A DNA stretch of 64,000 nt. It comes from Terriglobus tenax (GTDB taxonomy: Bacteria; Acidobacteriota; Terriglobia; Terriglobales; Acidobacteriaceae). The stretch covers positions 2,480,001 through 2,544,000 of the forward strand of contig NZ_JAGSYA010000004.1 in assembly GCF_025685395.1 (NCBI RefSeq), read 5' to 3'. How positions within the stretch are numbered: position 1 is the stretch's first letter; the number at the start of each line of letters is the position of its first letter. The notes beneath the pieces were generated by a model, which made no database searches, was not told where the DNA came from, and worked only from the letters and a program-made list of their open reading frames with translations. Below are positions 27,877 to 33,476 of this stretch, piece after piece. The translations under genes and the position numbers were made by a program.

Positions 27877-28347
27877 TTAGATCAGTCCAATGGCGCGGCC
27901 CGCAACGCCCACTCCCAGCCATAGGAAAAGCGACACGGCGGCTGTCACACGGGATAGCACCGTTGCCGAACTCCCCAGCGTCAGCACAACCCTGCGGTAC
28001 AGCGTGAAATAGAACAGTACCGCGGCCGCGAGCAGTGCCATCTTCCAGCGGAAGGCGGCGTTGTAGTAGCACTTCAACGCCTCTTCTGAAACCAGGGCGA
28101 TACCTGTCAGCAGCAGCACTGCCAGGCTGCCGAGCAACAGGCGGCTCAGGTCGCGATTCAATACCCGCGGAGATTCCCGTGTGAGAATCACGCCCATCAG
28201 GCGCAGATCCAGGATCAACACCGCCCCGCCAAGCAGGGCAATAGCCAACAGGTGGACTGCTTCCACCGATGCGAAGCCCCAGCGCGAGTTCTGCATGAAC
28301 TGGCCGAGCGAGGAATGAGCAAGAGCGACAAACCAGACGCGAAGCAT
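27877..28347 (-). CDS. DUF6644-like membrane protein, second copy
   Basis: A 156-residue polytopic membrane protein with about four helices. It contains VEAVHLLAIALLGGAVLILDLRLMG near the start, matching the paralogue upstream (ESVHVLAIMLLVG...LDLRMLG), and a shared YRRV motif late. The conserved His in the VH[LV]LAI motif could bind haem or another cofactor, but this is speculation. Ten bases separate it from the paralogue, so it is the last gene of a three-gene operon that starts with DUF6152. ATG 28347 is chosen; an upstream extension is proline-rich and unlikely. Confidence 0.78.
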   Translation of the reverse strand: MLRVWFVALAHSSLGQFMQNSRWGFASVEAVHLLAIALLGGAVLILDLRLMGVILTRESPRVLNRDLSRLLLGSLAVLLLTGIALVSEEALKCYYNAAFRWKMALLAAAVLFYFTLYRRVVLTLGSSATVLSRVTAAVSLFLWLGVGVAGRAIGLI

Positions 28348-28357
28348 GGCAGGCCTT

Positions 28358-28849
28358 TCAGAAGTAAGCAATCGCTCTGCCGGCGACGATAATGCCGCCC
28401 CAAAGCGTAAGTGAGGCAAGCGCGGCGGCACGCGCGCGCCACGGAGAGGTGCGTGCCGTCTCCCACTCCTGCACCCTGCGGTACACCGTGGTATGAAACA
28501 GCAGCGGGTTCAACCCCACCAGCGCCAGCAGAATGATCTTGATGCGGAATGCGGGGTTGCCGTAGTTCTTCGCCGCCTCTGCCCAGAACAGCAGCAGACC
28601 GCTGACAAACATCACCACGAAACCGGACCAGGTGAGTGGAAACACGGCGCGTGAAATACGCGTGACAGGAACCTCGCGCAGCACGATTCCGAGCATGCGC
28701 AGGTCAAGCACCGCAATGGTGCCCACCAGCAGCATGATGGCCAGCACATGCACAGACTCAATAATGGAGAACAGGTATTCTGACTCGCGGATCGCTGTTC
28801 CGATCTGCGAGTCATAGATTACCTGGCATAGATGTTGCAGTTCGGGCAT
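28358..28849 (-). CDS. DUF6644-like membrane protein, first copy
   Basis: A 163-residue protein with about four transmembrane helices at roughly 26-50, 68-92, 102-120 and 140-160. Helix one holds the ESVHVLAIM motif and is followed by VLDLRMLG; FHTTVYRRVQEWE comes later. The paralogue at 27877 shares these. Such proteins are common in Acidobacteria next to DUF6152 genes; their function is not known. The gene lies 38 bases after DUF6152 and 10 bases before the second copy. Confidence 0.8.
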   Translation of the reverse strand: MPELQHLCQVIYDSQIGTAIRESEYLFSIIESVHVLAIMLLVGTIAVLDLRMLGIVLREVPVTRISRAVFPLTWSGFVVMFVSGLLLFWAEAAKNYGNPAFRIKIILLALVGLNPLLFHTTVYRRVQEWETARTSPWRARAAALASLTLWGGIIVAGRAIAYF

Positions 28850-28887
28850 ACCGGATCGGCTCTTTCGACGAAAGAAAACTGCATGGC

Positions 28888-29340
28888 TTACTTGCCTGCA
28901 GGCTTGTTGGTGTTTGGCAGCGCGCCCTGTACTGAGCCATCGTCGCCAGGTCCGCCATCTCCGGGGGTTCCGCCATAGATGCTGCGGCCATCGGGCAACG
29001 TCACGCGGCGTCCATCAATCAGGTGAGAGCCATCCTTCGCGCGGTATCCATCCACGACAATCGTGTCGCCGATGTTCAAATCGCCTTTCTTGAAGCCGCG
29101 GCGGCTCAACGCTCCTGGGCCTGCGCCTTCACATCCCCAGTTCGTAACCTTGCCATCCTTGTCCACAACATCGACGTAGAAGTACGAGTGTGGATTGGTC
29201 CATTCCACGCGGGTCAGTTTGCCAACCAGGCGGACGGGCTTGCTTCCGTCAAATTCCGCGGAAAAGGAGTGGTGGGCGTACGCACTGGCCGTCGCTAGCG
29301 CCAATGCACCAAGAGTTGAGAGAACAAACCTGTTCTTCAT
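28888..29340 (-). CDS. DUF6152 family secreted protein
   Basis: A 150-residue protein with a signal peptide (residues 1-23, ending ASAYA) and a mature start HHSFSAEFD, the hallmark of DUF6152. The middle (VRLVGKLTRVEWTNPHSYFYVDV) and WGCEGAG segments are also typical, suggesting a small periplasmic OB-like beta-barrel. The Gly/Pro/Asp-rich tail is disordered. ATG 29340 has GGAAAGACACC upstream. First structural gene of the minus-strand operon whose leader carries a Cys-rich short ORF and a terminator hairpin. Confidence 0.85.
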   Translation of the reverse strand: MKNRFVLSTLGALALATASAYAHHSFSAEFDGSKPVRLVGKLTRVEWTNPHSYFYVDVVDKDGKVTNWGCEGAGPGALSRRGFKKGDLNIGDTIVVDGYRAKDGSHLIDGRRVTLPDGRSIYGGTPGDGGPGDDGSVQGALPNTNKPAGK

Positions 29341-29378
29341 GGTGTCTTTCCTGTGTTGTGGATTGGGTAGATCGAAAT

Positions 29379-29407
29379 GCAAAAGCCCGTTCACGAGGAA
29401 CGGGCTT
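29379..29407 (-). terminator. terminator hairpin in the leader of the DUF6152 operon (possible attenuator)
   Basis: On the minus strand a 10-bp stem AAGCCCGTTC / GAACGGGCTT with loop CTCGT is followed by TTTTGCATTT. It lies after the Cys-rich leader ORF (29503-29553) and 39 bases before the DUF6152 ATG, with no other gene upstream to terminate. A larger upstream stem (GTAAGAAAGC with GCTTTCTTCTTAC, about 29426-29476) could compete with it. Confidence 0.7.
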
Positions 29408-29502
29408 CGAAAACCTTGCGGAGTAAGAAGAAAGCGAATTCCGGCCAGTGGCCTATGGATTTCGTGCTTTCTTACGCGCGCATGCCTGCGTTGTCCCGTC
29501 CA

Positions 29503-29553
29503 TTACTTCTGGAAGGAGCAACAACAACCCGGCATGCTGAATCGCGAATGCAT
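29503..29553 (-). CDS. cysteine-rich leader peptide of the DUF6152 operon
   Basis: A 16-residue ORF MHSRFSMPGCCCSFQK with three consecutive Cys codons (TGT TGT TGC). Its first ATG (29553) is 7 bases past a -10-like TAGAGT that is 18 bases from a perfect TTGACA, so the message would begin at or next to the start codon (leaderless). An internal ATG at 29535 is the alternative. The peptide is followed by a terminator hairpin and then the DUF6152 gene. The arrangement resembles Cys-codon attenuators known from other bacteria; that it acts here is inference. Confidence 0.6.
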   Translation of the reverse strand: MHSRFSMPGCCCSFQK

Positions 29554-29560
29554 TAGCTGA

Positions 29561-29590
29561 ACTCTAAGTCCAGTTTCTTTCCTGTGTCAA
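29561..29590 (-). promoter_or_regulatory. promoter for the minus-strand leader
   Basis: On the minus strand TTGACA (29590-29585), an 18-base spacer, then TAGAGT (29566-29561). It predicts a start at about 29553-29554, exactly at the ATG of the leader ORF. Confidence 0.65.
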
Positions 29591-29600
29591 GCGAGAGTAC

Positions 29601-29630
29601 TTGACGCCGTGCATGGACTTGCTCTACGTT
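29601..29630 (+). promoter_or_regulatory. promoter for the plus-strand leader
   Basis: TTGACG (29601-29606), an 18-base spacer, then TACGTT (29625-29630). The predicted start is about 29637, the ATG of the plus-strand leader ORF. The two divergent -35 boxes form a dyad TGTCAAG-N8-CTTGACG (29585-29607), a candidate site for a shared regulator. Confidence 0.6.
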
Positions 29631-29636
29631 TGGCTC

Positions 29637-29690
29637 ATGTTCGGCCATTACATGCTGGAACGTACGTGTTGTTGTTGCGCCTGTCGCTAG
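29637..29690 (+). CDS. cysteine-rich leader peptide upstream of 29839
   Basis: A 17-residue ORF MFGHYMLERTCCCCACR with five Cys codons, four of them consecutive. The first ATG (29637) is six bases past the -10-like box, again fitting a leaderless message; an in-frame ATG at 29652 is the alternative. No strong terminator follows before the gene at 29839, so any control could instead be through Rho or translation. The mirrored layout with the minus-strand leader is unlikely to be chance. Confidence 0.6.
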   Translation: MFGHYMLERTCCCCACR

Positions 29691-29838
29691 ACATTCGCGT
29701 CCTCACGTCTGCATGTGTTCGTGTTGGCAATCTCTGTCATACATCCCAATAGCAAAAAAGAAAAAAAGACCTTGTGCGAGCCCTCGTCTCTGTGTGCGAT
29801 GGCGCATCGTTTCAGGTTGACTGGAAAGGGTTTTCCTG

Positions 29839-30738
29839 ATGAAAGCAATCCTGCGCTTGAGTGCATCTGTGTCACTGTCGGTACTTCTCGCTGGCTCTGC
29901 CAGCGTATGGGCTCAGCAGAAGTCCGCAAAGGCACCTGACGTTACCGGCCGCGAGAACTCACCCTTCTCGCGCAATGAAGCTGACCTTCCCAAAGGCCCG
30001 GCGCCCCGCCTCAACGGGCATCCTGACCTCTCCGGTTACTGGATTCCCTCCAGGAAAGACCGGCCAACCGGTAACCTCGGCAAGGACTATCCCGCCTACA
30101 AGCTGCCCTTCACGCCTGCCGGCGAAGCCGCGCTGAAGTACAACCTGGAGCACACCGTCGATCCCGAAGCGGTCTGCATCGTTGGCGGTCTGCCGCGCCA
30201 CAATGCCAGCGGTCTGCCCTTCCAGTTGCTGCAGGGCGCGGACCATGCCGTCTTCCTCTACTGGTACACCACCTACCGTCTTGTACCCTTTGATGGCCGC
30301 AAGCACGCCGAAGATCCTGACCCTTCCTTCTTTGGCGAAGAGATCGGTTCCTGGGAAGGCGACACCTTCGTCATCGACTCCACCGCATTCAAGGAACAGC
30401 GCACCTGGGCTGATGAAAACGCCAATCCGCATAGCGACCAGCAGCATGTCGTCGAACGCTGGACACGTCCTGACATTGGCCACCTTCACGTCGAGATGAC
30501 CGTCACCGATCCCAAGTTCTACACCGAGCCGGTTCACTACCAGCGCACCTGGCTCCTGGGCAAGCCGACGGACGAAGTGAAGGAATACTCCTGCGCTGAA
30601 GACAATGTCGACGCCCCGCACATCGGTCCCGGCCCCGGCCCCATCGGCCCCGATGGACAGCGCGGCTATGGCAAGCTGGCTCCGTTGCCTCCGCCCCCCG
30701 ATAAGAGCCATCCCGCAGTCACAAATATTCCCGACTAA
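29839..30738 (+). CDS. secreted protein of an Acidobacteria-type family, unknown function
   Basis: A 299-residue protein with a signal peptide (residues 1-25, ending SVWAQ). The mature part holds the motif LNGHPDLSGYWIP, a C-rich HTVDPEAVCIVGGLPRHN segment, and a long conserved-looking stretch EEIGSWEGDTFVIDSTAFKE. Proteins with this xGxPDLSGxW opening are frequent in Acidobacteria but have no assigned function. The C-terminus is Pro/Gly-rich. It is 16 bases upstream of a cytochrome c gene and behind the Cys-rich leader, so the two probably form an operon. Confidence 0.8.
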   Translation: MKAILRLSASVSLSVLLAGSASVWAQQKSAKAPDVTGRENSPFSRNEADLPKGPAPRLNGHPDLSGYWIPSRKDRPTGNLGKDYPAYKLPFTPAGEAALKYNLEHTVDPEAVCIVGGLPRHNASGLPFQLLQGADHAVFLYWYTTYRLVPFDGRKHAEDPDPSFFGEEIGSWEGDTFVIDSTAFKEQRTWADENANPHSDQQHVVERWTRPDIGHLHVEMTVTDPKFYTEPVHYQRTWLLGKPTDEVKEYSCAEDNVDAPHIGPGPGPIGPDGQRGYGKLAPLPPPPDKSHPAVTNIPD

Positions 30739-30754
30739 GTGATCTGGACAAGAG

Positions 30755-31144
30755 ATGATGAAACGATTCTTCCTTCTCACCATTCTGGCGGTCTCCACGA
30801 TGGGGGCCGCCACCCCGGACAGGCGTGCCGAGCTGAAGGCCCGTATGGACAAGCTGCAGGATACGCGTGACGATCTGCGCGATGCTCTTGATGCGAAGGA
30901 TGGCGCCAAAGCAGCAACTCTCAGTCGAGACATCGCACAGTTACTTCACGAAGACGAGCCTCTCTGGCAGACCGAAAAATTCGAAGAGGTACGACGCATC
31001 AATCAGGCAACGATCCAGCTTGCGGAGAGGATCCAGTCACAGTCATCCGCAGGAGAAATACAGGGGGCGCTGGAAAGCTATACAGCTCTGCAGAAAAGCT
31101 GCGCTTCCTGCCATGATCGTCATCCGGAACAACAGTTGCCCTGA
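30755..31144 (+). CDS. periplasmic cytochrome c (c'-like)
   Basis: A 129-residue exported protein: signal peptide at 1-19 (ending MGAA), then a helical, charged body and one haem-binding motif CASCH (about 116-120) close to the C-terminus. A single CxxCH at the end of a helical bundle is the cytochrome c' arrangement. It probably carries electrons for, or is matured with, the product of the gene 16 bases upstream. No other haem motif is present. Confidence 0.82.
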   Translation: MMKRFFLLTILAVSTMGAATPDRRAELKARMDKLQDTRDDLRDALDAKDGAKAATLSRDIAQLLHEDEPLWQTEKFEEVRRINQATIQLAERIQSQSSAGEIQGALESYTALQKSCASCHDRHPEQQLP

Positions 31145-33281: not shown

Positions 33282-33476
33282 GGCTGCCCTGTGTGTGACA
33301 AACAGCGCAGCGCAAACCGCGGCTCCTGTGTCGCACGAAAGACTAGCAGCAGCAGGCAACAGTCGCCAAGGCATGCGTCCAGGAGGATGCGGTTGATTGT
33401 GTGTCCACGCGCGTGGAACCTACCCCATCGGGTGATGTTTTGCAGTTTCCGATTGCGGAGTCTAAGCGTACACGCC

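Follow-up and report, generated by a model that had tools for sequence, protein, structure and literature searches.

Stalling within the polycysteine leaders of mycobacteria reportedly unmasks a ribosome-binding site. In the trp/his-type attenuators of Proteobacteria the control codons lie in arm 1 of the leader RNA, arm 2 can pair with the 5′ arm of the terminator, and the terminator is formed by arms 3 and 4. Leaderless polycysteine attenuators have been published for mycobacteria (Canestrari et al. 2020, Mol Microbiol 114:93), where the first polycysteine candidates were those of Shell et al. (2015; PMC4633059), and ribosome-mediated attenuation has also been proposed for the uORFC-8-2 motif found upstream of cysS in Rhodobacterales (PMC8632094). 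For acidobacteria, the accessible part of a 2010 paper (PMC2965389) reports that almost none of its predicted acidobacterial attenuators had an associated function, and that part describes no cysteine leader of this group. In the literature we searched, which misses most subscription journals, we found neither an account of such leaders in acidobacteria nor a paper on DUF6152.

The idea of attenuation by a leader rich in Cys codons is thus not new, given the mycobacterial and Rhodobacterales precedents. The locus described here lies in a 64,000-nucleotide stretch of DNA, referred to below as the window (G000:C4:2480001-2544000, from a genome of 4.36 Mb in four contigs). What is new in it, and sets it apart from the mycobacterial system, is the phylum, an intrinsic-terminator-like attenuator on one side (the minus side), the opposed pair of leaders in a single gap and target genes of unknown function. 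The minus side has its parts in the same order as a trp/his-type attenuator, and differs from that type in that it would sense cysteine, would be initiated without a leader and would have targets beyond one biosynthetic pathway. The features shared with the mycobacterial system, so far as the accessible text of the papers cited above goes, are a short ORF that is probably leaderless here, contiguous Cys codons, a position as the first ORF of sulfur or cysteine operons and the use of the device at several loci of one genome. Convergence with the mycobacterial leaders is likely, and the peptides are too short and variable to trace common descent. The likeness to uORFC-8-2, as given in the available portion of its report (PMC8632094), consists of Cys codons of the uORF inside the first stem and then an intrinsic terminator; that motif differs in being limited to cysS and to Rhodobacterales and in having two tandem Cys codons, and leaderless geometry is not stated for it in that portion.

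Genes of the two divergent operons

The minus-strand operon begins with a DUF6152 gene (28888..29340; 150 aa; PF19649, E 1.6e-29), whose product has, by eye, a signal-peptide-like start, and continues with two DUF6644 genes, both also on the minus strand. The first copy lies at 28358..28849 (PF20349, E 1.8e-11) and the second at 27877..28431 (PF20349, E 5.7e-18), where the true start may lie inside the frame. The first gene of the plus-strand operon, P299 (29839..30738), encodes a 299-aa protein that has a signal-peptide-like start and looks secreted; it has no match in Pfam, in NCBIfam or, by sequence, in the PDB, and its AlphaFold model has a mean pLDDT of 39. It is followed on the plus strand by a gene for a cytochrome c′-like protein of 129 aa with a CASCH motif (30755..31144; PF01322, E 1.4e-4, below the cut-off).

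In all 13 close loci (defined below), P299 is the opposite-strand neighbour of DUF6152; it also accompanies DUF6152 in many distant loci, including one in a Sphingomonas, and its 19-row alignment has two Cys and many Trp, Tyr and His positions that are invariant. Two DUF6644 genes were seen in ten of the 13 loci, and none was found in the fetched stretch of L006-L008. We know of no link between DUF6152, DUF6644 or P299 and sulfur. Two genomes of the same class have 45 (G054) and 64 (G060) DUF6152 matches, and the fetched ones have no CCC short ORF upstream.

Promoters and leader ORFs of the gap

The gap between DUF6152 (minus strand, 29340-28888) and P299 (plus strand, 29839-30738) holds two Cys-rich short ORFs. 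The initial annotation had described a leader peptide behind a promoter on each strand here, and the sequence and a promoter script agree with it in both cases. On the minus strand, a -35 box TTGACA (29585..29590; sequence and consensus scan) and a -10 box TAGAGT 18 nt away (29561..29566; sequence, consensus scan and promoter script) precede the leader ORF MHSRFSMPGCCCSFQK (29503..29553), the ATG of which, at 29553, lies 7 nt past the -10 and the stop of which ends at 29503. On the plus strand, TTGACG (29601..29606) and TACGTT (29625..29630), both placed by sequence and promoter script and again 18 nt apart, precede MFGHYMLERTCCCCACR (29637..29690), with its ATG at 29637, 6 nt past the -10, and its stop ending at 29690. 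Because of these distances of 7 and 6 nt, both leader ATGs are expected at or next to the transcription start, and that of the minus leader probably lies at +1 or adjoins it. The -35 boxes had also been said to form a dyad, and they do so (TGTCAA-N10-TTGACG); a back-to-back GTCAA...TTGAC pair recurs in 10 of the 13 orthologous gaps, and the promoters are far apart in the gaps of L003 and L004. A 12-mer, ACACAGGAAAGA, occurs twice on the minus strand, once at 29345-29356, at the DUF6152 ribosome-binding site, and once at 29576-29587, in the -35 and spacer of the minus promoter.

Conservation of the leaders

Absence of the Cys runs from orthologous gaps had been named beforehand as an observation that would refute these leaders. 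All 13 orthologous gaps have a Cys-run short ORF on each strand, and each leader has at least two contiguous Cys. The set consists of 13 distinct close DUF6152 loci from Terriglobus-like genomes, the closest named relatives among the fetched loci being Terriglobus albidus, Granulicella and Bryocella; L002 was dropped as the same place as L001, L033 and L035, whose leaders duplicate those of L004 and L005, were left out, and the table of Cys runs has no row for L017 or L026.

The promoter geometry is conserved along with the runs. By script, the arrangement that would place the start at +1 (ATG 6-7 nt past the -10, spacer of 17-18 nt) is present for 12 of the 13 sense leaders and for all 13 opposite ones, and TTGACA stands before the sense leader in every gap (12 scripted, L036 by eye). 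L036 has a sense -10, TAAACA, that was placed by eye, and a weak -10 before its opposite leader. Over the 26 leaders with TTGAC promoters, a TANNNT -10 lies 6-7 nt before the ATG in 25, one of these having a weak -10. Outside the Cys run the peptides vary (for example MVAIPSLLCCCSSIRL, MLPIAKMLCCCPSRLL and MRSVSILRCCPCCPFE) and differ even between Granulicella and Terriglobus, and the sense leaders range in length from 16 to 40 aa. The spacing of the Cys also varies freely (CCC, CCCC, CC, CCRC), and the runs of L006-L008 are no longer than CC, which the sense leader has more than once. In this opposed pair, two independent putative sensors, one on each strand of a single gap, have been kept across genera; the pair is real, conserved and most likely regulatory.

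Farther out, 43 more distant loci were tabulated (21 of L009-L031 and 22 of L040-L061), L052 being unjudgeable with 15 nt of upstream DNA. A CCC short ORF was found in none of the 42 judgeable distant DUF6152 loci, and one of these, L045, has no leader although its DUF6152 is 81% identical over residues 20-122. Six distant rows have a single-CC short ORF (sense in L011, L016 and L061; opposite in L019, L028 and L051), and these were not counted as leaders. Two of the close loci appear by eye to carry an inserted MITE-like repeat with inverted ends, which lies between the attenuator and DUF6152 in L005 and between the promoters in L004.

Rarity of the arrangement

Random short ORFs that happen to lie near promoter-like sites could give the impression of such leaders. 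Of the two promoters, the consensus scan picked up the minus one alone (10 of 12 positions), and 0.6 such sites are expected by chance in the scanned region, so the promoter by itself proves nothing and it is the combination of parts that counts. Similarly, the bare pattern TGYTGYTGY, with 1009 matches in the genome, was useless as a leader finder. The combination was counted on both strands of 464 kb of the genome, comprising the window and 20 sampled stretches of 20 kb. The strict arrangement (TTGAC, a spacer of 16-19 nt, TANNNT, 5-8 nt and ATG or GTG) occurs there three times by script; two of the three are the window leaders, and the third opens a frame of 250 aa. The same 464 kb contain 48 CCC short ORFs (nested starts counted apart), six of them with a -10 and two with both a -10 and a -35, and both of the CCC short ORFs (≤45 aa) that have -35 and -10 in place are the window leaders. 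Triple runs of amino acids other than Cys were absent from the short ORFs of ≤45 aa with -35 and -10 in place in this sample. The arrangement is rare in the genome and Cys-specific, and since each of the 13 close loci has Cys-run short ORFs on both strands, the explanation by chance is already refuted and has practically no probability left.

Two further sites were considered as leaders and rejected, each having a -10 only: one at 33408 of the window (minus strand), a GTG short ORF ending in ACCC that overlaps the start of an MFS-like transporter frame, and one at L132:17158.

The probable minus-side attenuator

Folding pairs the Cys codons of the minus leader with GGACGGGACAAC, just past its stop, in a hairpin designated 1:2 (29486..29527, minus strand). 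In the window this hairpin has a z score of -1.67, and 12 of 200 shuffles were as good; in eight sequences folded, the Cys codons fold against the post-stop element with z scores of -1.67 to -4.83, and the control codons lie inside arm 1. The conserved part of the post-stop element is GGACGG, often as GAGTGGACGG.

An intrinsic-terminator-like hairpin, CGAAGCCCGTT...AACGGGCTTTTG, follows at 29380..29410 (minus strand; 0 of 60 mononucleotide shuffles as good), its 3′ arm reaching to about +174 of the leader RNA and leaving 39 nt to DUF6152. In all 13 loci the sense leader is separated from the gene by a hairpin that is rich in G+C and has a short T tract, although that of L008 is weak and that of L005 was read by eye, the hairpin scan having taken the inserted repeat there. 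Against mononucleotide shuffles, 0 of 60 were as good in six loci including the window, 1 of 60 in L006, L007, L034, L038 and L039, and 6 of 60 in L008. The T tracts are short (4-6 T in 8 loci), and the far end of the stem lies at +164 to +177 in 9 of the 13 loci.

The conserved position of this hairpin bears on a second alternative, namely that the short ORFs encode functional small Cys-rich proteins and are not regulators. The ORFs look translated and have been kept across genera, as this alternative would have it, but their conservation is limited to the Cys run, the sense ORFs vary between 16 and 40 aa, part of the coding sequence lies within the 1:2 hairpin and the terminator-like hairpin comes about equally far downstream in 9 of the 13 loci. 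We consider small functional proteins very improbable and treat the short ORFs below as leader peptides.

The minus side of the window has an intrinsic-terminator-like hairpin between leader and first gene, as does a trp-type attenuator, and a pairing of its post-stop element with the terminator's upstream (5′) arm is possible, again in trp-type fashion. Compared with shuffles, this third pairing (2:3, the candidate antiterminator) had P<0.05 in 6 of 10 sequences, three with an identical element, and P 0.126 in the window. When elements were swapped between loci they often paired equally well or better, and the swap matrix gave no clear covariation; support for a 2:3 antiterminator pairing is modest. 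Overall, the minus side looks like a full attenuator, in which Cys codons held in a hairpin are followed by an intrinsic terminator. Rfam covariance models, run on window positions 28800-30400 and on eight loci, returned nothing relevant; only a tRNA in L034 reaches its gathering score, and the two matches in the window are both far below theirs.

The plus side

The initial annotation had seen the same design on both strands. This is borne out for the Cys-run leader and its promoter geometry, which are present on each, but not for the terminator attenuator, which was found on the minus side only. Between the plus leader and P299 there is no convincing intrinsic terminator in the window, and among the 13 loci only L032 has a T-rich-tailed hairpin on this side that outscores every one of the 30 shuffles; the strong hairpin of L004 in this place has no T tract. 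In a single fold of the window sequence, the ribosome-binding site and start codon of P299 can form a small hairpin, so masking of that site is possible. In L036, P299 lies about 1 kb beyond the opposite leader, with another reading frame in the intervening DNA, and for this reason that leader need not control P299.

Leaders before sulfur-assimilation and redox genes

Similar short ORFs occur elsewhere in the same genome. The sulfate adenylyltransferase gene cysD was found through PF01507 at 17 loci of the genus (in L106 and L108 its start was not located), and a Cys-rich short ORF lies 105-164 nt upstream of it in 15 of the 15 located loci. That of the window's genome is MRRVFTDRCCCLL, 7 nt past TAGAAT. 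A well-placed -10 is present for only 5 of the 15 cysD leaders, and those have no good -35 where this was scored. In a wider set of 30 cysD loci, two of which were not located, such short ORFs precede the gene at 9 of 9 loci of the genus. Beyond it the figures are 7 of 12 located loci for the family's remaining genera, 1 of 1 located locus for a second family of the order and 0 of 6 for further families of the class. The criterion was a loose one, for which the chance rate is at most about 0.14 per 260-nt gap (calculated from 484 such ORFs with CC on 928 kb of strand).

A PF01077 search of the window's genome led to a 557-aa NirA-type sulfite/nitrite reductase whose next gene is siroheme-synthase-like. 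NCBIfam does not separate sulfite from nitrite reductase for this protein, the best model being ferredoxin-nitrite reductase and every model scoring below its cut-off. Its leader, MQTVQNACCCTAVGRCA, stands behind TTGACT-N17-TAGCCT, and by eye a terminator-like hairpin, CGCCCGCG...CGCGGGCTTTG, lies before the gene. A full-promoter leader is present in only 6 of 30 NIR_SIR loci (L176-L180 and L190), where three of the 30 had no frame (L185, L194, L205) and two repeat the genes of others (L204, L205), and it precedes the longer NIR_SIR paralogue in 0 of 9 loci (L195-L203).

A sequence-only leader model, R1, was run on 19 genomes of the genus; the additions to the regulon that it gave often had weak E values and were then confirmed by reading promoter and ORF. 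On 60 genomes of the family it gave E≤0.1 in six, including the window's genome and G008. The resulting regulon list is incomplete, since R1 is biased to its source leaders and limited numbers of first-look candidates were scored per genome (150, or 85 in the 60-genome family search). In the window's genome a leader precedes a gene for a TlpA-like redoxin (R1 E 0.27, which is weak, so that this case depends on reading the sequence), and the same is true of three relatives, in two of which a CHRD protein lies opposite; the Pfam check of the set of TlpA-like, CHRD and TonB-like genes covered L171 and L168. In Granulicella sp. L60 a leader precedes a gene for a CDO_I-rhodanese protein. The sulfate-binding protein family TIGR00971 was found in 0 of the 19 genus genomes.

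The leaders also differ from ordinary frames in codon choice. Their Cys codons are TGT and TGC in a ratio of 70 : 29 (26 leaders, near-duplicates included), compared with 6 : 29 in ten ORFs of the window, and a rarer Cys codon in the sensor would be expected to sharpen stalling.

This company of genes and these codons bear on a third alternative, in which the nascent chain with its Cys run senses a thiol-binding metal or an oxidant (copper, zinc or redox stress) and not Cys-tRNA. Clustered Cys bind metals, a metal-responsive leader of this kind is known from Bordetella, and both the TlpA-like redoxin of the regulon and the cytochrome c′-like protein of the plus operon would fit such a sensor. 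On the other hand, leaders stand before cysD, before the NirA-type reductase with its siroheme gene and before the CDO_I-rhodanese protein, the spacing of the Cys varies freely, and the TGT-rich run fits slow decoding. We regard metal or oxidant sensing as improbable.

Proposed cysteine sensing and regulon

Since like leaders precede sulfur-assimilation genes of the same bacterium, a gauge of cysteine is the most likely function: the short ORFs are very probably leaderless leader peptides that would gauge charged tRNA-Cys, and both operons would belong to a cysteine-starvation regulon. Judged by genomic company, which is the strongest evidence, cysteine sensing by the leaders is well supported. 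Company of sulfur genes of the mycobacterial type was seen for cysD (15 of 15 located loci) and for the NirA-type reductase, and not for DUF6152 and P299 themselves. The cysteine-leader reading of the initial annotation is supported in this way, by Cys runs conserved in 13 of 13 loci and by the similar short ORFs before sulfur-assimilation genes; the insert in L036 and the third pairing, without clear covariation, slightly reduce our confidence in it.

We propose that each mRNA would start at or next to its leader ATG. When Cys-tRNA is plentiful, the ribosome would pass the Cys codons, and the terminator of the minus strand, some 140-175 nt farther on, would form and stop transcription before DUF6152-DUF6644-DUF6644. 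When cysteine is short, the ribosome would stall in the Cys run and open the hairpin between the Cys codons and GGACGG, and the freed GGACGG element could bind the 5′ arm of the terminator and thereby let the minus operon be read. On the plus strand the same sensor would act before P299 and the cytochrome c′-like gene, and masking of the ribosome-binding site or Rho are candidates for its output. The regulon would be shared with cysD, the NirA-type reductase and the TlpA-like redoxin.

Sensing of cysteine by these leaders would place DUF6152/DUF6644 and P299 under cysteine-starvation control, and would extend ribosome-directed cysteine control to the Acidobacteriota, which are abundant soil bacteria. 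The leaders also offer a handle on function, in that a gene behind one is probably needed when cysteine is short, and this makes a testable claim about DUF6152, DUF6644 and P299. Tentatively, as a possibility to which we lend somewhat less than even belief, the Terriglobales may have a ribosome-directed cysteine regulon whose leaderless polycysteine leaders arose independently of those of mycobacteria, and in which the DUF6152/DUF6644 membrane system, P299, its cytochrome c′-like partner and TlpA-like redoxins would form an extracytoplasmic system for getting or keeping sulfur. Starvation for tRNA-Cys would induce this system by way of the two sensors that share a divergent promoter.

Other leader-like sequences

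By eye, Cys leaders beginning MLPAYIACCCCSSQACPAG... (L150) and MQLVSTACCCCSSQVCPAE... (L152) lie before genes that resemble those for TonB-dependent receptors, and G003:C1:959259/959466 may hold another leader pair. A second divergent pair, MHIASRLCCCCR and MRTLSQLCCCSR, stands before genes for a TlpA-like redoxin and a CHRD protein at about G008:C1 1622506-1622780 (L168) and in G014:C5 (L149).
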